From a virus, in IMG/VR virus record IMGVR_UViG_3300020169_000014, positions 1 through 64,000 of that record: DNA of 64,000 bases; one strand, 5' to 3'. Below, piece after piece: positions 38,047-59,307 of the stretch. The notes under the pieces are model-generated. The model was not told the origin of the DNA and made no database searches. It worked only from the letters and a program-made list of their open reading frames with translations. Position numbers and translations under genes: made by a program. The stretch's first letter is position 1, and each line of letters starts with the position of its first letter.

Positions 38047-41000
38047 TTAGTTTAGAAGAGTACCGTTTTCGTCATAGATTAAGACAGTTCTAGATGCCAG
38101 TTCATTTAACGCTTTAACAATACTATCATTATTTATACCTTCAAAGAAGTTGCCTGGCGCAGAACTGTCAAGTGTATTCAACTGACCAACTCGATTACTC
38201 AAGTTTAGAATGTCTGTGTCATTACTTGTGACTCTACCCTTTACGACTTCAATTTCACCAACCGCACTATCCAGTTGGGTGTGGATCTCATTGATAGCCG
38301 GAACAATAAACTTACTTGTTGTATCCAGTGTGGAGATACCTGTTCCTGACATGTTCGCAGTTGTACCACCGGACTGTATAATGTCCAGATGCGCACGGGT
38401 TATAAGTTTCTCGGACTCTATCTCGGTAACTGCACTATCTAGTTGCAAATGAAGTTCATTGATACCACCCGCAACATCTTGTGCGGTAGTGTCTAGATCT
38501 TCGTCAGTGTGGAATGCACGACCATGTATCTCTACCTTAGTTGCATCCATTTCGATTGCAAGACCAGTACCAGAATAAATGTCCAGATGATTGCCAGAGT
38601 TTCGGAATTCACCAAACTGAACGGTTGCATCTTTAAGGAATACATTACCACCGTCTGCATCAAGTGTAATATCACCGGAGACATCATACGTCAGATTTCC
38701 TACAACATCAACTTCTTGGTTTGTACCAAGGTTATAGGTGAACTTAGTTACACCGCCATCCTTGAAGAAGATGTCCGCGCCATTCGCGTCAAGTGTAATA
38801 TCACCTTCTGCATCAAGAAGAATATTTGTTCCTGCATTGATGGTTGCAGTTGTTCCTGCGGTAGTAGATGTAGATCCACCGGCAGTCTGTACAATACTAC
38901 CTGTAGTAGTCAGACCATACGAGTCCGCACTATCATTTAATGCACCGATGATAGCATTTACTAATGTGCCACCAACAGTAGTAGTTTTGTTTACAGTAAT
39001 ATTCTCTTTTACCGAACCACCAATAGTTAGACTATAACCATTTGTAGTAGTCAAAGATGCAGAATCACTTACCGATATATTATAATCTCCGGTAACAGTG
39101 ATGTTGTTTGTTGCACCTAATTGATGACGGATGCGTGTGGATGCACCGTCTTTGAAGTAAATGTCGTTTCCATCTGCGTCAAGTGTAATATCACCAGAAG
39201 CATCGATCAAGTAATTACCATCTGCTGTATGGGTTTGTCCCAATGATGTTGTGGTCAATGTACCCAAAGTAGTATGAGACATTGCACCACTAGAAGTAAC
39301 TGAGTAAGTACCACCAGCACTATCAGATTGGTTACCTGATACAGTTTGTGTAAGATTACCGTTAACATCTAAAGTGTTTGACGCACCCATTCCATATGAG
39401 AAACGAGAAGTACCTGCATCTTTGAAGTCGATGTCTCCACCGTCTGCATCCAGTACTATATCACCTGCCACATCGACAGTTAAGTTGCCGGTGGGTACGT
39501 CAATCTCTTGATTCGCACCCATAACGAAGTCGAATCTGATCGCCCCATTATCTTTAAGTGTAACATTACCGCCATTTGCATCAAGGTTAATATCACCCTC
39601 AACATCTGCGGTTAGGTTACCACCAGCGGTAAGACCCATGTTTGATTCAGTAACAAGATTGAACGCACCACCCGCAGTATTCGTCATCGGGCCACGAGTG
39701 TCGATATTAATACCGTTAGTCGAAGAGATGTCACGAGTACCAGAAGCACTGTCAGAGTGATCTCCTGCCACTGTAAGGGTGTTGTTACCCGAAGTAGTAG
39801 TAGTGAGTGTACCTGTAACATCTAAAGTATTTGCTGAACCCAGTCCGTAAGCAAAACGAGTCGTTCCAGCTTGTTTGAGGTCAATGTCACCACCACCGGC
39901 ATCCAATACAATATCATTGACAACATCAAAGATCAACGAACCGACAACATCAATCTCTTGATTCGTACCGAAATTATATGTTACCTTATTGGCACCACCA
40001 TCTGTTAGATATAGTTGTCCACCATCAGCATCGAGAGTAATATCTCCAGATGCATCAACAGTGAAGTTTCCCGCCACATTATGGGTTTGTCCCAATGATG
40101 TTGTGGTGAGAGTACCAAGAGTGGTATGAGACATCGCACCAGTTGAGGTGATGTCACGAGTACCATTTGCACTGTCTGAGAAGTTGCCTGAGACGGTTTG
40201 AGTTAGATTACCTGTAATGTCTAAGGTATTAGATGCACCAAGTCCGTATTCAAATCTAGATACTCCACCGTCTTTTAGGTCGATGTTTGCGCCATCTGCG
40301 TCTAATATAATATTACCAGACACATCAAGAGTATAATTGCCAGTTACGGCTTCGGTGTTAGTGGTACCCATCGTATATGCAATACGAGTAACACCACCAT
40401 CTTTGTATGTAATGTTTGCCCCATCTGCATCGAAGATTATATCACCCGAGATGTCAAATGTCAAGTTTCCGGTACGAGAAACTGTACCGTCAGTAGCAAA
40501 GTCGTACTCTGTGACACCAGCATCTTTGAATGTGACATTACCACCATCAGCATCAAGGATAATATCTCCGGACGCATCGACAGTGTATGTGGTCGTTTCT
40601 ATTCTAGTTGCACCGGTAGAGGTAAGAGTTGTATCACCAGATACATCGATATCTAAGTTAGAAGAAATATCAAGATCAAGGATACCAGTCACACCAACTG
40701 TGTTAGTGGTACCTAATGTGAATGCAATACGACTGACCGAATCATCAAGGAAGTTGATGTTAGATCCACCGGCATCTAAATTAATATCACCTACCGCATC
40801 AACGTTGAAGTTTGCACCGACATTGAATTGTACATCAGTACCACTTGCTTGATTAGTACTGATTAGTAAACGAGTTTGAGTTTCCCCTTGGAGGGCATTT
40901 CCCGTAGGATAAATGATTTCACCGGAAGATGCGTCAAACACTCTTTCGATTTCGTTGATGGCCATGACCACATCACTATCACCGTGAGTGAGAAGATCCA

Positions 41001-41088
41001 CCGGATCGCCAACATTATAAGAGACAGTGTTGAGGTTGTCTCGCATTATCTTGAACGAGTCACTTAGTTTCGTAAATGGTCTTGACAT
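38047..41088 (-). CDS. Repetitive beta-structured virion protein (1013 aa)
   Basis: The N-terminal 70 residues are non-repetitive (FTKLSDSFKIMRDNLNTVSY, DSDVVMAINEIERVF). From about 95 to 800, a 40-45-residue unit recurs around ten times, each containing a form of SGDIILDADGGNVxxKDGGVTRFxYxLGTTNxxDVTGNLT-type strands. A longer duplicated block contains AMSHTTLGTLTTTSLGQTHT at two places about 850 bp apart. The C-terminal region has two copies of AxNEIHxQLDSAVxEIE and ends in GTLLN. This looks like a stacked beta-solenoid shaft. Probably a fibre; it adjoins the repeat proteins A and B. No enzymatic motif. Confidence 0.72.
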   Translation of the reverse strand: MSRPFTKLSDSFKIMRDNLNTVSYNVGDPVDLLTHGDSDVVMAINEIERVFDASSGEIIYPTGNALQGETQTRLLISTNQASGTDVQFNVGANFNVDAVGDINLDAGGSNINFLDDSVSRIAFTLGTTNTVGVTGILDLDISSNLDIDVSGDTTLTSTGATRIETTTYTVDASGDIILDADGGNVTFKDAGVTEYDFATDGTVSRTGNLTFDISGDIIFDADGANITYKDGGVTRIAYTMGTTNTEAVTGNYTLDVSGNIILDADGANIDLKDGGVSRFEYGLGASNTLDITGNLTQTVSGNFSDSANGTRDITSTGAMSHTTLGTLTTTSLGQTHNVAGNFTVDASGDITLDADGGQLYLTDGGANKVTYNFGTNQEIDVVGSLIFDVVNDIVLDAGGGDIDLKQAGTTRFAYGLGSANTLDVTGTLTTTTSGNNTLTVAGDHSDSASGTRDISSTNGINIDTRGPMTNTAGGAFNLVTESNMGLTAGGNLTADVEGDINLDANGGNVTLKDNGAIRFDFVMGANQEIDVPTGNLTVDVAGDIVLDADGGDIDFKDAGTSRFSYGMGASNTLDVNGNLTQTVSGNQSDSAGGTYSVTSSGAMSHTTLGTLTTTSLGQTHTADGNYLIDASGDITLDADGNDIYFKDGASTRIRHQLGATNNITVTGDYNISVSDSASLTTTNGYSLTIGGSVKENITVNKTTTVGGTLVNAIIGALNDSADSYGLTTTGSIVQTAGGSTSTTAGTTATINAGTNILLDAEGDITLDANGADIFFKDGGVTKFTYNLGTNQEVDVVGNLTYDVSGDITLDADGGNVFLKDATVQFGEFRNSGNHLDIYSGTGLAIEMDATKVEIHGRAFHTDEDLDTTAQDVAGGINELHLQLDSAVTEIESEKLITRAHLDIIQSGGTTANMSGTGISTLDTTSKFIVPAINEIHTQLDSAVGEIEVVKGRVTSNDTDILNLSNRVGQLNTLDSSAPGNFFEGINNDSIVKALNELASRTVLIYDENGTLLN

Positions 41089-41326: not shown

Positions 41327-44300
41327 TTATACTGCCAGTGATATAATTCTCAAGTCACGGAATGAAGGTACTTTCGCACTGTTGGTCGATCTCATAACAA
41401 TCTTAACTTGGAACTGTGTGAATGGTGACATAGTACCACCATCACCACCTACAAGATAACGGTATTCACGGAACACGTTCTTGTTAGTATCAACTGGTAG
41501 AACGGTTTCAGAATTAACCAGAGTCCATGCAGATCTCTTAATGTCATCACCCGCACTTGCGACTTTCCAATAAACTTGGAAGTCTGACTCAGGAGGTCTA
41601 TTCGCAGCAAGTAAGATCTTCAGTCCAACAGCCTGTTCGGTAAGAGTTGTTATTTTAGTAACATGTTTTGCAGACTCAGTACCATATAGAGGGTTAGTTT
41701 CACCGACATAAGATAATGGTACATTGAAACCATCCGTAGACGAAGAATCTTGTCTAGAGATCATGTTGTGAATAGTGTTCAACTTACAACGTTGTAAATC
41801 AATGACTGGAGACAAGTATGGATTGGTTGTCTTCAATGTTAACTGTACAGTAGCAGATCTCTCGCCATTGAGTTTACCTGCGGTTGACAGATTCTCGGTG
41901 CGTCTGTTAAATAGTGCACGAGGATTTGTGAACTCATTATTCTTCTTGTTCTCAATGATGTTATATGAACCATCTTTAACAAATCGAACTTGACTTCCTG
42001 CCAATGCGGACTGACTAGTAGTCTTAATCGACATAGTGTAGTTAGTCTCGCCTGGTTGTTTGATATCAATCTCGGGTCTCAATACTTCGAAGTTCATGTT
42101 TCTCTGAGAAGTTACAGAAGAACCACCGAACCACTTACGAGAGGTCGCAGATGAAGTTGCAGCATAGGTGTAACCAGAGTTATCAAAATCGATAACAGTA
42201 CGTACCCCATTAACATCTGCACCGGTCAAACCGTTACCAAAGTCAGTTGCAGAGTCGATACCTCGAATCCAAGTCTTATCACCATCTCTAAGGCCATGAC
42301 CTTTGAACATAACACGTACTGTGTTAGATCCAGAATCCACTACCAAAGGATCTTTAGACAAAGATACTGGAGGTATGTTTGCATTCTCAAGGATAGCATT
42401 ACCAGAGGTTTCAAACTTAGCAACATTGATTCTGTATGAAAGATCTTGACCACTAGAAGGTTCCCACAATTTAGCATTCTGAGATTTAAAGAATCCACCC
42501 AGAGTTGTTTGTTGTGAGATGAACGCTTCGTTAGAGTTCAATTGGTGTTCACCGACAGTTGCAACATATACGTTATAGTCCGGATCATTGTTGCCCGGTC
42601 TTAGTACGAGTGCATACTCTCCACCCGCAACAAATACCGGATGATCAAATGTAAACGTAGTAGCATTCTGCAACATTTGTTTGTTGGTAGATCCTTCTGG
42701 AACAAGAGATACTTGACTTGCAGATAATTTCTTAGTTGCAATAATCTTACTTGAAGACGGAACGCCATTCACAGTAGGTCTCAACTCACAGAATACAGGA
42801 GCAGAAGAAGACTTACTTGCAAAGTAAACATCAACAGATGTAATGAATACACCGGCAATTTGTTTAACCAAGAAGGTCTGCGCGATTGGATCGTTATATT
42901 CTAGTCTATTATTGGTATGTCTGTAATTGATACCACCTTTACCCTGTCGAGTAGTTCTTTCTACTGGAGTTAGGTCGGCATCAGTCACCGCACCGCCCGG
43001 AGGAACTGTAGTGTCTGTTACATGATCTACCGGAGTGATTTGGTTGAGATAATTTACCTCAGAAGTTTCACCAACATGTTCTGTAGATGATGTGGTATCA
43101 CCGACCAGAGTAGAATATGTTTCGGTAGATACTACATCTGTAGCAATTTCTGTCGAGATAACAGATTCAGTCCATACAGTTGAACTTGAAGCAATTGTTC
43201 TATCAACATCACTGGTACTGTTACCTACGATTTTAAGTACGCGAGTTACTTCGACTTCATCTTCATACTCTTCGAGAACACCTTTAGAGTGGAACATTGC
43301 TCTACCATAAGACATTGCAGCACTGAAGTCATTGACATTTACGTCAAGTAATGCAAACTCACGAGGCCCTGTGTAGAAACGCATTGCTTGGTTGTTAGGT
43401 ACTTCGAACGAACCAATAATACTACCTTCTGCGTCAGATATAAGGTTGGTCTTACCAGAACTATGTTCTTGGGTAGTACGTTGAACACCTTCACCATCTT
43501 CAGTACTTTTAGATGCAAGGTAATTGCGTTGAGCCCAAGTACTGAACGTAGTCTGTTCCCTACAGAAAGAAGATACGTTAGAACCATCAAAGAATGGGAA
43601 GTACTGTGTATTAGGACGCAGACCTTCAGCTTTGAATTGAATATCAATCGAACGCATGAAAGGAATGACCGATACATCGATAACCTTTTTACCAACTACG
43701 TCACGAATAGTAGACTCACTCGCAATACGGTTTACTGTATTGGAAGTTGTTGTTGTTGTTGTGGTATCCGTAGTAGACTCATACGCATTTTCAGTTTCGA
43801 TTGTGCGTGTGGTTTCATAAGTAGATGTGTTAACAGTCTTAACTTTATCTCTAGTTTCGGTAGTAACAACATCCCACATATCAGTGGTAATTTGTTCGGC
43901 AGTCCAAGGGTTGTAATAACCATATGAATAAGAACCTGTTCCACCTAAGCCAAAGTAAGAACCAGACCAGTTACCAGTCCAACCACCCCAATAGTTATGG
44001 TTCCACCAAGAATCTATTACTGTACGTGAGATTTCTTCTTCACGTTCACGTGATACTTCTACAGTTTCGGTATAAAGAGTTTCAACATCAGTCACATGAC
44101 CGACTTCAACCCACTCACCGAGAGTTTCGGTTGTCTCGGTACCAATAAGAACAGGATCTGAACTATTGTGTGTTATCGAAGTTGCGGTACCACTTACAAA
44201 TGAAGTTGCAGCATCACCAGCTTCTAGGTCAGAAGGATCTACACCAAACCATTCGTTCTCGGAGTTGTTCCAGTTCAATGCGTGTTTGAGGTCAAATTCA

Positions 44301-47209
44301 CTTGAACGACCCACAACAGTTTCACCAATCTTCTGAGTCTCTTTCCAAGAATCAGTTTCCGGAGAAAGTTCTACACTACCGACAATGGTAGGAACATAGA
44401 AAGGTGCGAGGTTTTCTGTACCAGAAGCGAGTTCTTGCGCTTCATATGCAATTTCGGTATGGTTCAACATAACGAAGTCACCGAATACACCGGTACGTAG
44501 TTGACCGACATGATCACTGTCATAGAAAAGATCTGCACAGTCTTCTACAAAAGTAGGACGTAACAGTTTACCTCTCTTGTCAATCGCAGCACGATATTCA
44601 GGAGACTTAGTTTGAGAATGAGAATGTGACTTGAAGTTGTCTACAAAGAATCCAGACTTAGCACGATCATTACCCGCAGAATCCAAAACATTCATCATTT
44701 TAGTATTCAATTCGAGAAGTGACAATGTAGTCATTTCTTCAAGACGATCAACTTTCTCTTCTAGTTTGTTGATGTCCTGCATCGTATAACCCTTACGTGG
44801 AATAAGAGTTGTTCTCAAATCCTGAGTGTGCATGGTATTAGCATTCAGTCTCAGTTTATAAAGATCAATACAATCCACAGGAACATCAGGGTATTTCGGA
44901 CTTAACGAAGAAGAACCGGTGATATAACGAAGTTCACCTTGTTTAGATATTACCAGACGGTCTGCACGAGGTAAGTAGTATTCGGCATCTGTAGTGATAG
45001 TATCAGTAGGTACCGGAAGAGGACAAATTGAACCAGCAGAAAATGAACCAGAACCATCAGTTGAAGGACGGAAGTCGATTGCATCACGTAGTGACAGAAG
45101 ACCACCATCAGGCAATTTCTGGCCAGGAACTTTAAGATAATCCAATTGACCATCATAAGAGTTCACAGCATAGAACTGCCCACTTACCGAAGGTTCGAAA
45201 TACTTATATCGTACAAATACGGATTGATCTGCACTATCAAAACCACCACCAGAATAGATTAATCTACTGTCATCTTGGTGAGTAGTACGGTTACCCGCAT
45301 CGAATAAGAAACTGGTGAATACATCTTCACCATCAGAATCATTAAGAGATACACGTTGAATACTATAGACATCAGATTTACCGAGAGGAAGGAAATATAC
45401 ACCTGCGCCATCAGAGTCTAATGAAGCAGTTACCACGGTTTCTGTCAGTGTCTTTGTTTTAACACTTGCGTTAGTTTTTCTTATGAATACAATTGCTTCA
45501 TATGCAACACCATTCGACAACCCACTGAACAAAATGTCTGTGTTTCCGGATTGGATATTTGATGCAACACTTGAAGGTGCAAACTCAGTTGCAGAAGCAA
45601 CAAGGATATCACTTTCATTAACAAAACGTTCACCAGCATCGGTCAGTGTGATTGTGTGACTAGTACCAGAAGCCGTAAAGTTGTACTTCTTCATAAATGT
45701 CATAGTGACATCAGTGAAAGACTTGGGTCGTCTTAATGGAGTATCAAACAGTAAAGCATTTTTCTTAGGTTCATGTACAATACTTCCGCCATTACCTGTT
45801 ACTTGAACAAGGTTTATGTAGTGAGTATTGGTCGAAGATTTAATAGATTTGACATCACGTAAACTATAATTATAGTTATCTCGTTGGATGTCGAATAAAT
45901 GTGCCTTGTATAAAGGTGGTCTCACATAGGTGTATCCACCAGTACGAAGTCCGGTGGAACCTTCGGTCAATGCACGAATGTGTGCAGTACCGATTGCACT
46001 ATCTGCACCATCAAAACCCGCATATAATGTCACCTCTTCGCAAGTATCAATATCCAACATACCAACACCACTATCGAAATAGTAGTAGTTCCCGTAGTCG
46101 ATACCAATCTGTTCTTCTTCTCTTGCAATAGTGTCTCTTGCTTTAGGAATCGGTATATTGCGAGTAGAAGTAGTTGCAGCTCTATATCCATCGATATATG
46201 CTGTGCCTGGATCTACCTTCAACATCAATGTAGATGATGCGTTTGTACCATTAGGTTCTACGCGAAGTTTCCAATACTTCTGGATGAAGTCTCCATTAAT
46301 CTCTCGGACACGTGTAGCAACGTGATTCCGGACTCTATTGAAACCTTCATCATCAGATTGTTGATCGACTAATCTACCACCTTCGATACGACCGAAATAC
46401 ACGAAGGTATCTCCGGTCACCATCTGGTCTCGTCTAATCAGTTCTAATCGAATACGGTATCTGTCTGCGCCAGGCGAAGCACGGTTAGGAGTTACATTTT
46501 GATTGTCATACAGTGCATCAGTATCGGATACTGTTATAATGTCTTGAATAACTTTAAAACCAATATCTGCTGTCTGGAAATTCTTATACTTATCAAGGAA
46601 TAGACTCTGTTTAGGACAGAATACAAAGTGTCCTTGAACATAAAATTCTGATTGTCCAACTTCAACCTGAGAACCATATCCGACTGCCGGATTGGTAGAT
46701 GTGTTGATTGTTTGAACTGTTAAGTTAATGTTAGACCCGTTGGAGAGTACTTCGCCAGGCGTAACAAAGGTACTAGTAGTAAGTGGTAGACTAGGACTCT
46801 GTGTATTTGGATTGTCCAAGTACTGGACAAAAAGAGTATCAGGGTCACTGTTCACAGAAGCAACTGCTTCATAGATCTTGACTTTGATACTCGAATCCGC
46901 ACCAGTTAACACGACACCCTTCAATGCACTTACAGTATCAAAAGAGTTATTTTGATCGTTCTCTATTTTGATGAACGCATAATGGTTGTTAGGTGCAACA
47001 CCACCAGCTTTAGTAGGAACACCATCCTTTTGGAATATGTTATCAGCAAACCTTTTAATTTCTTTTTGGATGATGGTCTGCATCTGTGTAAGTTCACGTG
47101 CTTGCAATGCACGACCGGCATTGAACAAGATACGTGAGTAATTATCACTATCCGCGTGATCATCCTTGTAGGTTGATCTGAATGTTTGTTCTGTAAATGT
47201 GTTTGGCAT
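41327..47209 (-). CDS. Very large virion structural protein with DUF4815-type N terminus (1960 aa)
   Basis: The N terminus (FTEQTFRSTYKDDHADSDNY, ILFNAGRALQARELTQMQTI, IQKEIKRFADNIFQKDGVP) matches the start of large structural proteins of marine T4-like phages that carry DUF4815; they are linked to baseplate or fibre attachment. Residues 1-870 are beta-rich with few repeats. A Trp/Tyr/Gly-rich loop lies near 1065-1100 (WWNHNYWGGWTGNWSGSYFG) and a Thr-rich stretch near 1140-1160 (ESTTDTTTTTTTSN). The last 550 residues contain further beta domains (QKWFG, VNGVPSSSKIIATKKL). No enzymatic motif seen. It is next to gp8, supporting a baseplate-periphery role. Confidence 0.78.
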   Translation of the reverse strand: MPNTFTEQTFRSTYKDDHADSDNYSRILFNAGRALQARELTQMQTIIQKEIKRFADNIFQKDGVPTKAGGVAPNNHYAFIKIENDQNNSFDTVSALKGVVLTGADSSIKVKIYEAVASVNSDPDTLFVQYLDNPNTQSPSLPLTTSTFVTPGEVLSNGSNINLTVQTINTSTNPAVGYGSQVEVGQSEFYVQGHFVFCPKQSLFLDKYKNFQTADIGFKVIQDIITVSDTDALYDNQNVTPNRASPGADRYRIRLELIRRDQMVTGDTFVYFGRIEGGRLVDQQSDDEGFNRVRNHVATRVREINGDFIQKYWKLRVEPNGTNASSTLMLKVDPGTAYIDGYRAATTSTRNIPIPKARDTIAREEEQIGIDYGNYYYFDSGVGMLDIDTCEEVTLYAGFDGADSAIGTAHIRALTEGSTGLRTGGYTYVRPPLYKAHLFDIQRDNYNYSLRDVKSIKSSTNTHYINLVQVTGNGGSIVHEPKKNALLFDTPLRRPKSFTDVTMTFMKKYNFTASGTSHTITLTDAGERFVNESDILVASATEFAPSSVASNIQSGNTDILFSGLSNGVAYEAIVFIRKTNASVKTKTLTETVVTASLDSDGAGVYFLPLGKSDVYSIQRVSLNDSDGEDVFTSFLFDAGNRTTHQDDSRLIYSGGGFDSADQSVFVRYKYFEPSVSGQFYAVNSYDGQLDYLKVPGQKLPDGGLLSLRDAIDFRPSTDGSGSFSAGSICPLPVPTDTITTDAEYYLPRADRLVISKQGELRYITGSSSLSPKYPDVPVDCIDLYKLRLNANTMHTQDLRTTLIPRKGYTMQDINKLEEKVDRLEEMTTLSLLELNTKMMNVLDSAGNDRAKSGFFVDNFKSHSHSQTKSPEYRAAIDKRGKLLRPTFVEDCADLFYDSDHVGQLRTGVFGDFVMLNHTEIAYEAQELASGTENLAPFYVPTIVGSVELSPETDSWKETQKIGETVVGRSSEFDLKHALNWNNSENEWFGVDPSDLEAGDAATSFVSGTATSITHNSSDPVLIGTETTETLGEWVEVGHVTDVETLYTETVEVSREREEEISRTVIDSWWNHNYWGGWTGNWSGSYFGLGGTGSYSYGYYNPWTAEQITTDMWDVVTTETRDKVKTVNTSTYETTRTIETENAYESTTDTTTTTTTSNTVNRIASESTIRDVVGKKVIDVSVIPFMRSIDIQFKAEGLRPNTQYFPFFDGSNVSSFCREQTTFSTWAQRNYLASKSTEDGEGVQRTTQEHSSGKTNLISDAEGSIIGSFEVPNNQAMRFYTGPREFALLDVNVNDFSAAMSYGRAMFHSKGVLEEYEDEVEVTRVLKIVGNSTSDVDRTIASSSTVWTESVISTEIATDVVSTETYSTLVGDTTSSTEHVGETSEVNYLNQITPVDHVTDTTVPPGGAVTDADLTPVERTTRQGKGGINYRHTNNRLEYNDPIAQTFLVKQIAGVFITSVDVYFASKSSSAPVFCELRPTVNGVPSSSKIIATKKLSASQVSLVPEGSTNKQMLQNATTFTFDHPVFVAGGEYALVLRPGNNDPDYNVYVATVGEHQLNSNEAFISQQTTLGGFFKSQNAKLWEPSSGQDLSYRINVAKFETSGNAILENANIPPVSLSKDPLVVDSGSNTVRVMFKGHGLRDGDKTWIRGIDSATDFGNGLTGADVNGVRTVIDFDNSGYTYAATSSATSRKWFGGSSVTSQRNMNFEVLRPEIDIKQPGETNYTMSIKTTSQSALAGSQVRFVKDGSYNIIENKKNNEFTNPRALFNRRTENLSTAGKLNGERSATVQLTLKTTNPYLSPVIDLQRCKLNTIHNMISRQDSSSTDGFNVPLSYVGETNPLYGTESAKHVTKITTLTEQAVGLKILLAANRPPESDFQVYWKVASAGDDIKRSAWTLVNSETVLPVDTNKNVFREYRYLVGGDGGTMSPFTQFQVKIVMRSTNSAKVPSFRDLRIISLAV

Positions 47210-53080: not shown

Positions 53081-53693
53081 CATCTTCGAGAACTTCTACC
53101 AACTCATTCTTTGCAAAAAGTATTCCGTTGTATCTTGTTTCCAATTCATTTTTATAGTATAACTTCCAAGTAATTCCATCTACCTTTGGCATTACGACTG
53201 TTACTTGTGCATTGAGTTTTCCTGTTGGATCCCACTTATCATATTCTAGAATAAGTTTATCGTATCCAACATAGTCCTTGATATACTCAGCAAGATCGAA
53301 TGTTCTTTCATAATCGATCTCACCCTTCTCATCAACTACTTTGTAACTTACCATTTGACCGTCTTGTTTTAGAAGATTTTCTCCTGCAACTGTTTCTAGA
53401 GGGCCACCACGATAAACCCCTTCCGATACAATAAGACGCACATCTTTGAACATGTCAATGTTTCCATTGATTCTACGGAACAACTCTGCGTGTAGATAGA
53501 GATTGTATGCAAGTTGTTGTCTATCATTAGGACTGTTTTGATATTTGTCTATGGTCGATAAACTACATGGGTTTCCTTTACTGCCAAGAAACTTAGAGAC
53601 TGATACTCCAGGCGCAAGTTTAGTGAACGAAGTAATATCCTTCGCATCAACTAAAGCTGGATTGTATTTCTGATCTGGTACAATTGTTATCAT
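53076..53693 (-). CDS. Baseplate-operon protein of unknown function
   Basis: 205 aa. Mixed alpha/beta: a helix QQLAYNLYLHAELFRRINGN at 59-78, strands DVRLIVSEGVYRG and DGQMVSYKVVDEKGEIDY, and the region FDLAEYIKDYVGYDKLILEY followed by AQVTVVMPKVDGITWKLYY. The pattern (helix, strand, conserved loop, AEYIKD) faintly recalls cell-wall peptidases of the M15/D-Ala-D-Ala type, but the metal-site His/Asp residues are not visible, so I do not assign that activity. ATGA overlap with the beta-helix gene places it in the hub operon. Probably a hub-associated structural or degenerate enzyme domain. Confidence 0.55.
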   Translation of the reverse strand: MITIVPDQKYNPALVDAKDITSFTKLAPGVSVSKFLGSKGNPCSLSTIDKYQNSPNDRQQLAYNLYLHAELFRRINGNIDMFKDVRLIVSEGVYRGGPLETVAGENLLKQDGQMVSYKVVDEKGEIDYERTFDLAEYIKDYVGYDKLILEYDKWDPTGKLNAQVTVVMPKVDGITWKLYYKNELETRYNGILFAKNELVEVLEDV

Positions 53694-55126
53694 TTGAATC
53701 TTTTACCTCTATTCTTCACGGAGTTACCAAGTGGAGTATAACCAAATCTTGGAGATGTTTCTTTCTTGGCAATACGTCCTACCTTCGGAGGTAAAGGATT
53801 TTCCCAGTCGGATGCAATCATACCATTCTTTATCAGTGCATCGGGGAATGAGATACCTTTCTCGTTCACGATTGTTCTGTTCGCTTCGTCTCGCATGGTA
53901 GATCGAATTTCATTTATAGTGGGTTCTTTTTCAAACAGTCCCGCATAGTCATCACGTAACAGTATATGATTGCGTATTGCATCTTTACTATCAATTGATA
54001 TTGCACGTATAGACAAATGTCCATCTGACAGAAGACCTGCAACTGCATCTGTCTTAGGTATTGGTTTCAGTGGAGATAAAGATTCCATATTCTTAGGCAC
54101 ATCAGGCGCCCCTCCGGAGGGTTGTCCACCTTTCTCCTTGGATGCAAGTTGCGCAGTCTTCGCATTCTCTGCTTTATGCGCATACTTGGATTTGATTGCT
54201 TCGAGTGCCTGTCCATGGAAAGAACCATAGAATGATGCACCCGAAGTAAATGGTACCGCACCTTGTGGCCCCATGTAAACAGGGCCAGTGAACTCGACTT
54301 GTTCCCCTCCAATCGCACCTTTCATACCAAGTACTGATATTTCAGTTGCAGAGATATTACCCTGCAATGCAGTCATCACAAATTCTTCTTCGGCAGATAC
54401 ATGGAAACGATTACCGGTGAACATTTCAATCTCAGCACCTACGTTATTTTTCCAATGACCTTTGATGGTACCATAACAGTTACCCAAAACAATATCTGAT
54501 TTGTGTTCGACTGTCTTGTTTACCGCAGTACCTTTAGTTGTATAATTGGTGTTCAGTCCTACCGTTGTGGTGTTGTTCTTACGTATCTCGGTGTTGGTAT
54601 TGCCATCAACGTTGACATTGTAATCACCCCCAACATTGACATTATAGTCACCTGTCACTTCAAGGTTGAGGTTTCCATTATACACCAACTTACCGTTACC
54701 TTCAACAATGACAGTTTGGTCACCACCAGTAACCTCGACCTTGTTATTGACCGCAGAGATGACCACAGACCCGTCTGCGCGGACTTCTACACCCGCACCC
54801 TTACGGTGTTTGATAAGAATACGTTCACCGCCAGGCGTGTCATCATACGAGATGATATGACCCGATGCGGTTTCTTTTACTTGGTTGAACGGGAAACGAG
54901 AAGGTTCTTGGTCTTCGAGATCCAAGTCTGTTCCTTCGGTACCACCACCAAGATAAAGATTCTCTACTTTGAGACCACGTGCAGATCTATTTAATGAAGA
55001 CCCATAATGATATTCCCTTTTGGGAAATTCTCCAGTAGGATCTTGGAAACCATCAATTGGAACACCTTCGGTATTTTCAATTGCAGGATTGTCACCTATC
55101 GTTTTTTTATTTGTTGTAGTTGTCAT
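53690..55126 (-). CDS. Baseplate hub spike/needle protein (gp5 C-terminal beta-helix-like)
   Basis: 478 aa. The middle part (about 95-290) is a row of short strands with an 8-10-residue rhythm (VRADGSVVISAVNNKVEVTG, NLNLEVTGDYNVNVGGDYNV, NVDGNTNTEIRKNNTTTVGL), as in the trimeric beta-helix of T4 gp5C and VgrG-type spikes. The N-terminal 90 residues (TGEFPKREYHYGSSLNRSAR, RFPFNQVKETASGHIISYDD, GGERILIKHRKG) are the usual pre-helix block. No PAAR tip is fused. The C-terminal 190 residues are loop- and helix-rich. It is a separate ORF from the OB-fold protein at 57087-57956. Confidence 0.8.
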   Translation of the reverse strand: MTTTTNKKTIGDNPAIENTEGVPIDGFQDPTGEFPKREYHYGSSLNRSARGLKVENLYLGGGTEGTDLDLEDQEPSRFPFNQVKETASGHIISYDDTPGGERILIKHRKGAGVEVRADGSVVISAVNNKVEVTGGDQTVIVEGNGKLVYNGNLNLEVTGDYNVNVGGDYNVNVDGNTNTEIRKNNTTTVGLNTNYTTKGTAVNKTVEHKSDIVLGNCYGTIKGHWKNNVGAEIEMFTGNRFHVSAEEEFVMTALQGNISATEISVLGMKGAIGGEQVEFTGPVYMGPQGAVPFTSGASFYGSFHGQALEAIKSKYAHKAENAKTAQLASKEKGGQPSGGAPDVPKNMESLSPLKPIPKTDAVAGLLSDGHLSIRAISIDSKDAIRNHILLRDDYAGLFEKEPTINEIRSTMRDEANRTIVNEKGISFPDALIKNGMIASDWENPLPPKVGRIAKKETSPRFGYTPLGNSVKNRGKRFK

Positions 55127-57084
55127 ACGGCCTTCTTCAGTTTCAGACCATTTCGGTCTAATGATGTTTCTGTCAATGGATCTGCGTAAACAGTCTTCTT
55201 ACCAAACTTGTTCTCAACAAAAGATATAACATCAAAGTACGGATCTTGAGATGAGATGTCAATGTCATTGTGACCGAGAACTTGACCGCCCGGAACTATC
55301 TGGTAGAATATTTCTAGAATATTTTCTAGTGTCTTCATCTGAGATATAGTGAATGAACTCGCGGACAAATTCAATAAAGGATTGTCAGCTTCGGTCGCGA
55401 CATTCACACCACCTACCAAACACACATCAATACAGTTAAACTTGTGGCGGTTGATGTCACTTGCATCCGCAACATTATCTAAGGGTAGTCCACGTTGAAG
55501 TGTTCCGTCACGTCTAATGACCAGATGGTATTGGATACCAACATGTCCTGCTTCGTTGTGTCTTAGTTGAATCTCTTCTGCACCAATGTTTGCATTCGTG
55601 TAGGTTTCACTTGCATGAATTACAACCTCGGATATCTGTCGAGTCATTTTAACAAACTCTAATCCAAGTTCTTCTTTAGAGTCTATGTAAGAAAATTCTC
55701 TAATATACCCTGCGGAATATCTTTTAGAGAGTTCCAATAGATCCAAATCTTCGGTGAAGAATTCACCCGCTTCGGAGACAACACTTCCTGCTATTGTAGT
55801 ATCTACTTGACTAAGTGCATTCTCAATCTTAACAGACTGATTTTTAAAGTTTTGTAATTCGGTCTCGGATATTCCGGCAGCTCTTGCTTTACTCTGAACC
55901 TTGAGATTAAATTCTTCAACATTATTAGCATCTGTGCCTCTAATTATTGTTTTTAATTCTGGAGATAATGTTTTATCTTTCAGTGTCAGTGCTTTGGTTG
56001 CTTTGGTGAGATTGATATCCCCGCCAGTCATGACATCGTTCATGATACCAGAGAGGAAATCTTTATCGAGTTCTTCACCTGCACCGAACAGTCCCGTAAG
56101 AATACCGCCGACCGAACCAGTCAAATCTTCGAATAGATCTTGTGCAGTACCAAATCCTAAGTTTATATCAGAAGAAACATTGTTAACAAGATCTGTTACC
56201 GCACTTCCGATACTACTTGTAATAGCACTGAACCCATCCGAGATTATACCTTTTGCTTCATTGAGTCCAGTCTCTAATGCGGAAGTCAGTGATCCTGTCG
56301 CTGTCGCAGATGCGTTGGCAATAGTATTACCGACACCTTCGACTGCGGATACCGCACTTGCAACTTCATCTAGTAAACCACCACTCTTTGACTTATTGGC
56401 AACTTCATCCAATTTACTCTGTACGTTCCCTATACCTTCGGTTATAGAAGCACCCAATTCATCACCACCGGCTTTGGCTTCGGATGCTGTTGTCTTGATC
56501 GAACTCAATAACGTACCTTTTCTTTCGGACGCATCTTCGATTGCACCGGCAAGTTCATCAAGTGCAGAACCACCCAATGAAACGATAGTGATACTTTCTA
56601 CAGGCGGAATGATTCCTGTCAATGATTTTGTAATCTCGGGAACAGTACTCGGTGAGTTTTCTCCGGTCTGTACTACGGTAGGTACTAATTCACCATCAAC
56701 CAATTGTGTTATTGGATTACCTGCGGAATCTTCGGTAGGGAGTCCGCTCCCATCTAAGACGAATTCTTCTACCTGAGTGGCTACATTTGTCACCGTGACA
56801 ATAGGAACGCCCACATCAGTTATCATATCAGATGGATCTGTATTAGGGTATACTCCCGCAGTAGGAAGTACTTGGGACAATGAACCTGTGGTATCAGTTT
56901 TTGAATTGTTGTCTAAACTTTTGAATCCGTTCACATCAACTTCTACATTCTTACCGAGTATAGTTGATGAATTCAGTATATTCGCATCCTGAGACTTTAC
57001 GACCTGTTGATTAAGGACATTTAAGTTTGCGGTTGATGTGACCTTTGCTTTGAGACCGTCATTAAGTGTTTGGAGACTAGACAT
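55123..57084 (-). CDS. Baseplate hub protein with C-terminal N-acetylmuramoyl-L-alanine amidase domain
   Basis: 653 aa. Residues 1-430 are low-complexity and helical (ALETGLNEAKGIISDGFSAI, GSVGGILTGLFGAGEELDKD) and look like a tape- or hub-type linker. Residues about 480-630 form an Amidase_2/T7-lysozyme-like domain: Zn ligand His490 in VVIHASET, catalytic Tyr519 in IQYHLVIRRDGTLQRG, FNCIDVCLVGG, then His605 in VLGHNDI and Asp614 in SSQDPYFDV. All expected ligands (H, H, D as in AmpD-type enzymes) are present, so it should cleave peptidoglycan stem peptides. It lies between the OB-fold hub gene and the needle gene, with 2-base and ATGA junctions. Likely the virion's cell-wall-opening enzyme. 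Confidence 0.85.
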   Translation of the reverse strand: MSSLQTLNDGLKAKVTSTANLNVLNQQVVKSQDANILNSSTILGKNVEVDVNGFKSLDNNSKTDTTGSLSQVLPTAGVYPNTDPSDMITDVGVPIVTVTNVATQVEEFVLDGSGLPTEDSAGNPITQLVDGELVPTVVQTGENSPSTVPEITKSLTGIIPPVESITIVSLGGSALDELAGAIEDASERKGTLLSSIKTTASEAKAGGDELGASITEGIGNVQSKLDEVANKSKSGGLLDEVASAVSAVEGVGNTIANASATATGSLTSALETGLNEAKGIISDGFSAITSSIGSAVTDLVNNVSSDINLGFGTAQDLFEDLTGSVGGILTGLFGAGEELDKDFLSGIMNDVMTGGDINLTKATKALTLKDKTLSPELKTIIRGTDANNVEEFNLKVQSKARAAGISETELQNFKNQSVKIENALSQVDTTIAGSVVSEAGEFFTEDLDLLELSKRYSAGYIREFSYIDSKEELGLEFVKMTRQISEVVIHASETYTNANIGAEEIQLRHNEAGHVGIQYHLVIRRDGTLQRGLPLDNVADASDINRHKFNCIDVCLVGGVNVATEADNPLLNLSASSFTISQMKTLENILEIFYQIVPGGQVLGHNDIDISSQDPYFDVISFVENKFGKKTVYADPLTETSLDRNGLKLKKAV

Positions 57085-57086
57085 TT

Positions 57087-57956
57087 CTATACCTTCTTAT
57101 TCGCATATATTTCATATACTCTTTTTACTTCGCTGTTGTAATCATCTTGAATAGGAGCATAATGACGACCTATAATATTACCCAAAGATCTTGGTTTGGA
57201 TTTATCAATAACATCAGAATTCAAAATGCGAATGTTTGCATCTACGTGAGTAGTATTTAGTTCATATGATATGAATGCCAATTGTGTACTGAAATGCCAC
57301 CATTCATTACTGAATGCCTTCAGGCGAGTGAATCTAACACCACTCCAACCCATCAGTCCGGTACCGCCGATATTTGTATATGTGGTATCAAAAGAACTGT
57401 TAATACGTGAGATCGCACCCACAATCGCACAAGCTTGTTTGATACTGTATCCGGTAGAAAGAAAGAATTTGACAGCAATGTCTCTACGCAACTTCGAAGT
57501 AAACTCATCAGGAGTTTCATCTCTAAGTTCATTCTTCAATGCTTCCGAAGACTCATCAATAGAACCTGTTGATTGATTATAGAACTCTTGGTCTGGACTT
57601 ATTCTCTCAATCAAACTGTCGTATGCAACTTGTTTTTGAATCGAGGTAGGATATTCTGTACGGGGTAGTGAACCGATCACGATAGGAACTTGTGACTCGG
57701 TACCATCCATAAACATACCAAAGACAAAAGAACCCGCCTCAAGTCTTGGAGTAGAACCCAATCCAGACACACCACCCTCAGTGGTAGGTAATACTACCTG
57801 CGCCCATGGGAGATCATTCTGTCTCACTTCACGGGTAGATGGGTTGTGAATACCATGGATACGTACACGCACACGACCCTCCAACCCATAAGGTGGAGTG
57901 GTATCGATCACGTCAGCAACAAACCAACGAACCTTATCACCGTAGTAATTAATCAA
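57087..57956 (-). CDS. 5: gp5-type hub protein: OB fold plus degenerate tail-lysozyme domain
   Basis: 289 aa against 575 in T4 gp5. Residues 5-98 form the gp5/VgrG OB domain (LEGRVRVRIHGIHNP, QNDLPWAQVVLPT, EAGSFVFGMFMDGT, PIVIGSLPRTEYP). Residues 160-240 follow the phage tail lysozyme pattern: FFLSTGYSIKQACAIVGAIS, GGTGLMGWSGVRFTRLKAFS, WWHFSTQLAFISYEL. Where active members have an E-S-G-F motif, this protein has N186-S-S-F, so the catalytic Glu appears missing. The gp5 beta-helix is encoded separately at 53690-55126. Overlaps the gp27-like gene by 8 bases. It would bind the gp27-like ring and carry the spike. Confidence 0.85.
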   Translation of the reverse strand: MINYYGDKVRWFVADVIDTTPPYGLEGRVRVRIHGIHNPSTREVRQNDLPWAQVVLPTTEGGVSGLGSTPRLEAGSFVFGMFMDGTESQVPIVIGSLPRTEYPTSIQKQVAYDSLIERISPDQEFYNQSTGSIDESSEALKNELRDETPDEFTSKLRRDIAVKFFLSTGYSIKQACAIVGAISRINSSFDTTYTNIGGTGLMGWSGVRFTRLKAFSNEWWHFSTQLAFISYELNTTHVDANIRILNSDVIDKSKPRSLGNIIGRHYAPIQDDYNSEVKRVYEIYANKKV

Positions 57957-59307
57957 TGTTCGGCCCCTTCTCTAGTTTGAATACCGTCATTGCAACATCA
58001 TGTCGAGTATCTCTAAAGGTATGTCTTGTATTGTAAATAAGAAAGTCACCACTCTTCAATTGATCGAGTTGATCAGGACTCTCTGGATTATTGTCATCGT
58101 TCAAAACATTGATACGAATCTTATCACCTACCGAACCACCCGATGCAATGAATCCTGGCCCAGGCACCGTAACATCCATCATATTTTTGAATATAACGTT
58201 TCGGAATGCGAGGTTCTCAATCTTCTTGAGAAACATACTAGGACTCACTTCGTCATGGATACTTTTCTTATCGTTATAAACACCCCGAGATACTACACTA
58301 TGGAATATCTTTGCATTGGTATTATGTAGGTGATCTCCTTCGATGTTCACATCTGCAATATCAGGTGTTTTGTATGATGCGTCATAGACATTCTGTTTCG
58401 CATAATTTATAAGTCCTTTCTCACTAGATTTCAATAATAGAGATTCTAGACTAAAGTGTTGCGCAGTTGTTCGACCATTGCTAATATCTGTCACGGTATA
58501 CAATGAACCTATACCACCCGACATAAGTTGATTGAGTGTGTTTTGTAACTTACTGGTTTTCATCGTCTGTACTTGGAAGTATTGCATAGTAGTATCACCA
58601 CCTTCTTCTTGTGCCTGTGTGTTAGCAGGAGAGAAGATGAAAGGAATCTTTTTATTCCATGCGGGTTGTTGCAACATAACATCCAGACTTGCAAGTCTTA
58701 GGTTTTGATCGTGGATAGACGCATATAAAAAGAATGGCATACCCAAATCTGTAGTTGCTTTATTAGTCAACCAAGTTGCAGCCTCAAGGGGGTGCATGTA
58801 TGGGATGATGCCTTTAAAGTTACTCTGGACAGTTTCTCCCGAATAAGAAAGATCGACACTCTTACCACATTCGTTCTGACACAGTTTTACTATTTCAGTA
58901 CCCAAGTTATCTCGTATTGCACGTGAAATGTTTTTGGTCTTACTCACGAATGCATGTTCATCCATAAAACTGAACACGTATAACGAGGAGTTGCCTGAGT
59001 TAGAAGACTTGATAATGTTGTCGATACCGGTCAATAAGAAAGAACGATCCATAACAACTTCTTCGGATTCGGTCTTACTCATTTCACTCAACATTTTGAT
59101 ATGGAGTCTGTCTGTTCCACTAAAACCCAAACTATCAAATACCCCTTGGTCATCAGATATTACGACTTGACCACTGATATATGGTTTGTCTAGATTCTCA
59201 AAGAACACCAACTCCACGATCAGAGAACGAACATCGACAATGAAATCCGATAACCTGTCCGAAGTTATCTCGGCAACTTGATATTTAAATTGGGATTGTC
59301 TTTGCAT
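57949..59307 (-). CDS. 27: Baseplate hub protein gp27-like
   Basis: 452 aa; T4 gp27 is 391. Trimeric ring linking the tail tube to the gp5 spike, with the late-control-D-like tube domains. Blocks seen: VRSLIVELVFFENLDKPYIS, GQVVISDDQGVFDSLGFSG, GNSSLYVFSFMDEHAFVSKT, IIPYMHPLEAATWLTNKAT, and KSGDFLIYNTRHTFRD. These fit the gp27 family more by pattern and position (just before the OB-fold gp5) than by strict identity. The gp27-gp5 gene overlap of 8 bases suggests coupled expression in equal amounts. Confidence 0.82.
   Translation of the reverse strand: MQRQSQFKYQVAEITSDRLSDFIVDVRSLIVELVFFENLDKPYISGQVVISDDQGVFDSLGFSGTDRLHIKMLSEMSKTESEEVVMDRSFLLTGIDNIIKSSNSGNSSLYVFSFMDEHAFVSKTKNISRAIRDNLGTEIVKLCQNECGKSVDLSYSGETVQSNFKGIIPYMHPLEAATWLTNKATTDLGMPFFLYASIHDQNLRLASLDVMLQQPAWNKKIPFIFSPANTQAQEEGGDTTMQYFQVQTMKTSKLQNTLNQLMSGGIGSLYTVTDISNGRTTAQHFSLESLLLKSSEKGLINYAKQNVYDASYKTPDIADVNIEGDHLHNTNAKIFHSVVSRGVYNDKKSIHDEVSPSMFLKKIENLAFRNVIFKNMMDVTVPGPGFIASGGSVGDKIRINVLNDDNNPESPDQLDQLKSGDFLIYNTRHTFRDTRHDVAMTVFKLEKGPNID

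Follow-up and report, generated by a model that had tools for sequence, protein, structure and literature searches.

A zinc amidase gene between the halves of a split gp5 points to a probable exchange of the wall enzyme in the spike of a T4-like phage

The DNA studied here, called the window in the following, comprises 64,000 nucleotides (positions 1 to 64,000) of the IMG/VR virus record IMGVR_UViG_3300020169_000014, which is 72,225 bases long in total. The phage, which is uncultured, is assigned to the T4-like phages because the window encodes a major head protein, a portal, a sheath and a terminase as well as baseplate wedge and tail proteins of the T4 type. Its spike protein gp5 is split into two genes, a gene for a 653-amino acid protein ending in a zinc amidase domain lies between the two parts, and the lysozyme domain kept in the upstream part lacks its catalytic Glu. 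We consider it probable that the wall enzyme of the T4-like spike was replaced by an amidase and that the lysozyme was kept as a pseudoenzyme. According to this reading, gp5 would be made as separate chains, one with the OB domain and the lysozyme-fold domain and one with the needle, and the protein encoded between them would be held at the spike by its less conserved N-terminal part. The amidase would most likely cut the MurNAc-L-Ala bond and in this way open the peptidoglycan when the DNA enters, and the Glu-less lysozyme domain would probably act as a spacer or as a docking/peptidoglycan-binding module around the spike.

The genes concerned lie on the minus strand. The open reading frame (ORF) at 57087-57956 (-), upstream of the amidase gene, encodes 289 amino acids and combines a gp5 OB domain (residues 1-107; 57636..57956, -) with a Phage_lysozyme2 domain. 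The OB domain was identified by Pfam (Gp5_OB, 1.4e-6) and by comparison with T4 gp5 (PDB 1k28), on which its predicted structure superimposes with a VIA Z of 9.5 over 89 residues at a root-mean-square deviation (rmsd) of 3.0. The OB and lysozyme ORF is followed by the gene of the 653-amino acid protein (55123..57084, -), composed of an N-terminal part (residues 1-460, N part) and the amidase, and its stop codon overlaps the start codon of the following gene (ATGA). The latter (53690..55126, -) encodes the C-terminal gp5 needle, a beta-helix protein of 478 amino acids matched by a PHROG hub family (4.5e-32) and, below the cut-off, by Gp5_trimer_C (1.3e-5). Since the needle ORF aligns with the one-piece gp5 of Ochrobactrum phage OC, Caulobacter phage Cr30 and T4 from the lysozyme/needle linker onward, the break in gp5 falls into the linker that is cut in T4, where the maturation cleavage occurs between Ser351 and Ala352 (PMC7650644). 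With the OB and lysozyme ORF upstream and the needle ORF downstream, gp5 is therefore split and the amidase gene stands between its parts. The preliminary description had placed the amidase in a fusion with the hub protein; for gp5 this has to be revised, as the amidase belongs to a separate gene. Next to the split gp5, at the position of gp27, a 452-amino acid hub partner is encoded (57949..59307, -; phrog_350 tail protein, 1.7e-32). In phage OC, the gene directly upstream of gp5 is annotated with the HHpred match 1WTH_D, a PDB entry whose title names the gp5-gp27 complex and whose chain D we take to be gp27.

The order of OB and lysozyme ORF, amidase gene and needle gene is found in every window-group locus that encodes OB with Phage_lysozyme2 and has enough flanking sequence, the window group being relatives from several searches, of which one kept 80 of 150 and another 80 of at least 586. 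The relative L046, in which the lysozyme domain is absent, has OB and needle in one piece. The OB and needle parts follow each other within the baseplate operon in the order known from T4 gp5, with an enzyme between them and the break at the same linker (PMC7650644). Unlike T4 gp5, in which OB, lysozyme and needle form one chain that is cleaved, the window has separate genes with the amidase gene between them, and its lysozyme domain belongs to another Pfam family and lacks the Glu.

The upstream lysozyme domain (residues 148-289; 57090..57515, -) was recognized by the Pfam profile Phage_lysozyme2 (PF18013, 2.7e-10), which matched all eight members of set A3. The search of PDB sequences with the lysozyme-domain profile gave no match, so that a fold comparison was needed. 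The predicted domain, taken from a model of the 289-amino acid protein built on an alignment of 68 rows, superimposes on the N-terminal lysozyme of phi29 gp13 (3csr) with a VIA Z of 13.4 (138 residues, rmsd 2.7), so that profile and fold are both found. The suggested catalytic residue of gp13 is Glu45, whose counterpart in GH184 is essential as judged by mutation (PMC10394673). Unlike gp13, the window carries Ile185 or Asn186 at this place (57399..57404, -), both non-acidic; Ile stands in the Glu45 column of the alignment, but the assignment varies between these two residues because of a one-residue insertion in the window sub-clade. The whole stretch of residues 172-204 is devoid of Glu, and the domain, in which the Glu45 counterpart is missing, is for this reason listed as a probable pseudoenzyme and not as an active lysozyme. 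In a gp13-anchored alignment, Glu is found in five of the 92 unique window-group proteins, and the other 87 carry Val, Ser, Ala, Thr, Lys, Ile, Asn, Gln, Arg, His, Cys or Leu. The preliminary description set the amidase of this phage against the glycosidase usual in gp5 of T4-like phages; a glycosidase-type domain, lacking its catalytic Glu, is still encoded upstream.

The ratio of nonsynonymous to synonymous substitution rates (dN/dS) was 0.08-0.09 for the lysozyme domain, 0.01-0.04 for OB, 0.04-0.06 for the amidase and 0.03-0.05 for the needle, values that come from three pairs of three sequences with some dS near 1. By this measure, the lysozyme domain is retained under purifying selection despite the loss of Glu.

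The Amidase_2 domain at the end of the 653-amino acid protein (residues ~460-653; 55126..55707, -) is real, as judged from sequence matches and a structural model. Its Pfam score is 28.1 bits at a cut-off of 26, the C-terminal part matches a PHROG amidase family (4.6e-26; PHROG class lysis), and the closest PDB sequence in a phmmer search is T7 lysozyme (1aro, E 3e-13). Superposition on T7 lysozyme had been proposed in the preliminary description as a check, and the AlphaFold model of the domain, built for the whole protein on a 63-row alignment (block pLDDT, the predicted local distance difference test score, 85-96 across residues 461-653), fits 1lba with a Z of 18.6 over 137 residues (rmsd 2.3). 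The four residues named in that description, His490 (55615..55617, -), Tyr519 (55528..55530, -), His605 (55270..55272, -) and Asp614 (55243..55245, -), align in phmmer with T7 His17, Tyr46, His122 and Cys130, which gives the two His, Cys/Asp ligand and Tyr of an Amidase_2 zinc amidase. Among 107 unique relatives, truncated ones included, His490 occurs in 107/107 and Tyr519 in 102/107; owing to one truncated row, positions 605, 612 and 614 were read in 106, and the zinc ligand positions His605 and Asp614 are present in all of them. A larger sample of 117 amidases (the wider set) likewise shows no variation at the zinc ligands. The domain thus resembles T7 lysozyme and the zinc amidases of the peptidoglycan recognition protein (PGRP) type in fold and zinc ligands.

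The word "intact", used for the domain previously, needs a caveat, because the Lys that precedes the Cys/Asp ligand by two residues in T7 lysozyme and AmpD is Ser612 here (55249..55251, -; phmmer alignment with T7 lysozyme). Since Lys-bearing relatives read "K-x-D", the site was counted from the Asp ligand; MAFFT places T7 Lys128 and Cys130 one column earlier than phmmer does. Among the relatives, site 612 is Glu in 68, Ser in 21, Val in seven, Ala in five, His in three, Asn in two and Lys in none. Three residues after the first ligand, the window clade has an acidic residue, Glu493 in the window (55606..55608, -; Glu in 97 and Asp in 10 of 107). Unlike T7 lysozyme, the window protein therefore has Ser at the Lys128 site (mostly Glu in its relatives), an acidic residue at 493 and a 460-residue N part. 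In the wider set, comparison of sites 493 and 612 gave 93 amidases that are acidic without Lys, 19 that are non-acidic with Lys, four with neither and one with both, so that a non-acidic residue at 493 accompanies Lys in 19 of 20 cases. A tree of 108 amidase domains and T7, in which both columns were masked, contains one clade of 83 members (Shimodaira-Hasegawa-like approximate likelihood ratio test, SH-aLRT, 100), of which 83 are acidic at 493, 83 are non-Lys and 80 stand beside a lysozyme without Glu. As read from these alignments, the amidase of the window clade has lost the Lys and gained an acidic residue.

The association of amidase and Glu loss was followed in a wider scan that used Glu-bearing members as queries (best 80 of at least 512) and included isolates; rarer architectures may have been missed because the samples were limited to 80 each. 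Among the 143 unique proteins with OB and Phage_lysozyme2, 87 lack Glu and adjoin an amidase, none lacks Glu in the absence of an amidase, 29 have Glu with an amidase and 13 have Glu without one; the flank was too short in 12, and two were unreadable (L084, whose OB and lysozyme are encoded by different ORFs, and L152, which is cut off). Wherever the flank is sufficient, a lysozyme without Glu (87 cases) thus has an amidase as its neighbour. In the subset of 111 fetched with the OB-lysozyme query the corresponding numbers are 59, 0, 29 and 11, with 12 flanks too short. The relatives look like intermediate steps of an apparent series: an undivided gp5 that has Glu, as in Cr30 and OC; split gp5 with Glu and without amidase (RHph_I1_18 and several contigs); split gp5 with Glu and an amidase, mostly with Lys (19 of the 28 amidases adjoining a Glu-bearing lysozyme); and split gp5 without Glu, whose amidase is without Lys (the window clade). 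In the inferred order of events, the one-piece gp5 would have been split, the amidase added and the Glu lost at last.

On a tree of 95 rows rooted on Cr30, the window clade comprises 58 rows (SH-aLRT 99), the amidase changes twice and Glu three times. The number of Glu changes is unsettled, with four by parsimony on 69 rows and three on 95 rows; if regain is disallowed, seven losses are counted on a tree rooted on RHph_I1_18 (L051) and 11-21, depending on the root, on a tree of OB alone. All trees are of the quick kind and their long branches were flagged. Outside the window clade, the locus L244:4995-9660 carries Gln at the Glu site, a 426-amino acid amidase gene and two needle ORFs; by the tree, on which its branch is long, its Gln is possibly a separate loss of Glu.

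Several observations weigh against an exchange in favour of an active amidase. The T7-type Lys is missing in 106 of the 106 readable window-group members, and in T7 lysozyme K128T causes a considerable drop of activity (PMC4573324). Five of the 107 relatives have Phe for Tyr519, and T7 lysozyme Y46F loses its amidase activity (PMC8124813). Glu stands beside an amidase in five of the 92 window-group proteins (L037, L038, L040, L041 and L137), which are nested within the Glu-less clade (on the tree L038, L041 and L137), implying repeated (late) loss or regain of Glu. Moreover, few independent transitions (three of Glu, two of the amidase) lie behind the association, and because of this small number of events it is a pattern and not a statistic. 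Finally, the separate GH24 lysozyme discussed below was not found in three of eight long records, including the window's own 72-kb record, which says little as the records may be fragments.

An unlikely reading that still deserves weight is that both enzymes are dead, the lysozyme by the loss of Glu and the amidase by that of Lys, and that the hub only binds peptidoglycan as non-catalytic PGRPs do. Besides the missing Lys, it is favoured by the short OB-needle hubs of HTVC008M and Mosig, which matched neither the lysozyme nor the amidase profiles, a comparison made with these profiles and without a Pfam scan. However, only the amidase PGRPs hold zinc (PMC8124813), and the three ligands are invariant here; the dN/dS of the amidase is about as low as that of the needle; an acidic residue is found where the Lys is gone; and PGRPs and the Ts2631 endolysin carry Thr at the Lys128 site (PMC4573324).

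It is improbable that the lysozyme is still active by means of a displaced acid, e.g., Asp190, and that the phage uses two enzymes. The fold is kept, dN/dS is low and relatives with both Glu and amidase exist, yet among the 92 proteins 13 different residues occur in the Glu column, which ranks 20th in variability among 172 columns, the window has no Glu in the stretch around it, and Glu is kept in all eight outside domains sampled from named phages (gp13, RHph_I1_18, Bobb, Cellulophaga phi4:1, Goe8, PMS2, Cr30 and OC).

We infer a virion location of the amidase from the position in the operon, from the single Amidase_2 per record in eight of eight long records and from a separate small GH24 lysozyme ORF (155-176 amino acids), present in five of these eight, which could do the final lysis. 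The proposal of the preliminary description that the amidase is delivered on the tail tip is consistent with the gene lying inside the gp5 block; both the delivery and the amidase activity are putative. That the 653-amino acid protein is a late-lysis endolysin merely sited in the tail operon is very improbable in our view: the best annotated matches are amidases and endolysins of ~40 kb phages and the PHROG class is lysis, but the domain is fused to 460 amino acids and does not stand alone outside the tail operon, its gene lies inside the hub block between the two spike genes in every window-group locus with flank, the start of the needle overlaps its stop, and the separate GH24 ORF accompanies it in most long records.

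The N part is less constrained, with a dN/dS of 0.13-0.17 vs 0.04-0.06 for the amidase. Its earlier characterization as an Ala/Ser/Gly-rich helical chain is only partly borne out: Ala, Ser and Gly together make up 29.1% of residues 1-460 vs 19.2% of the amidase part, a mild bias, and residues 341-430 are modelled as helical (block pLDDT 76-93), but beta strands are predicted between 54 and 172 and pLDDT falls below 50 at 252-317 and 433-448, so that the N part is not one flexible helix. A role as tether would fit the weaker constraint, with part of the region predicted to be folded. The VIA structure list was filled by amidase matches, and no fold is claimed for the N part for this reason. The least probable reading, that it is a tape-measure-like protein of the tail tube with the amidase as its tip, draws on long modelled helices and PHROG tape-measure matches (2e-9 and 6e-6), which are taken as compositional, and is opposed by the variable length of 583-912 amino acids among complete window-group ORFs and by a 726-amino acid ORF in the usual tape-measure place. 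This ORF (64918-67098 of the record; L205:4919-7096), situated beside the tail tube and hub genes, gave no Pfam or PHROG match and is a tape-measure candidate.

Both a split gp5 and hubs with several enzymes are already known. For the rhizobial T4-like phages phiM9, P10VF and Atu_ph04, gp5 in two genes is reported (PMC6630229), and divergent gp5 is described for pelagimyophages (PMC7029224). RHph_I1_18 likewise has gp5 in two genes with OB and Phage_lysozyme2; it differs from the window in that its Glu is retained and an amidase gene between the halves is absent. Cr30 and OC share the succession of OB, Phage_lysozyme2 and needle, whereas their gp5 is one chain with Glu kept, to which OC adds an M15 peptidase well above the cut-off. 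The hub protein gp15 of Anabaena phage A-1(L) also joins a lysozyme-like domain with other wall hydrolases, which unlike in the window are an endoglucanase and a peptidase on the same chain (PMC10966104); that text does not use the word "amidase". Judging from such hubs, the T4-like spike seems to be a place into which various wall enzymes can be plugged. Below the cut-offs, VanY was matched in the OB protein of Melnitz (L049:3625-4665; E 1e-4) and M15 at the end of the RHph_I1_18 needle (L051:9245-11152; E 0.001).

A tblastn search of annotated phages with the whole 653-amino acid protein gave 1354 records, none with 80% coverage, and the 40 matches listed cover residues 453-647 alone; because the listed matches are confined to this part, no isolate with the window architecture was seen. 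The nearest isolate by gp6 is Phage C48C1 (41%), in whose OB protein the lysozyme domain was not found. Among the open-licence PMC papers listed, no title or opening of an abstract mentions an amidase between gp5 halves or a Glu-less tail lysozyme, and a prior description is possible.

An exchange of the spike enzyme would let one read from sequences how a molecular machine may come to work with another tool, with an enzyme added, the old catalytic residue lost and the old domain kept. With the intermediates in hand, namely Glu-bearing hubs with and without amidase and Glu-less hubs with amidase, it becomes testable in which order the events occurred, what the dead domain does and why the switch took place. 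As a speculation, and unlikely as a whole, the switch might have changed the chemistry of entry and freed the phages from lysozyme-directed inhibitors, either of the host or from a superinfection exclusion resembling T4 Spackle; the inactive lysozyme domain might then be a peptidoglycan-binding guide or an inhibitor decoy, and Glu493 might make up for the lost Lys in a rewired amidase site. The gene name "tail lysozyme" should be read with caution in environmental T4-like phages, as the product may be no lysozyme.

Further observations concern the needle and other spike-like proteins. Compared with many relatives in which both enzymes are retained, the window clade has a shorter needle; the needle ORFs of L226, L230 and L237 have 664-781 amino acids compared with 478 in the window, and Pfam gave no identity for the extra part in those scanned. 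Outside the hub block, the 1013-amino acid protein encoded at 38047-41088 has a DUF2345 match above the cut-off (1e-7) and a weak Gp5_trimer_C match and represents a second spike-like beta-helix. The 1960-amino acid protein at 41327-47209 contains DUF4815 (1.4e-51) and, judged by gene order, occupies the position of VrlC in HTVC008M.

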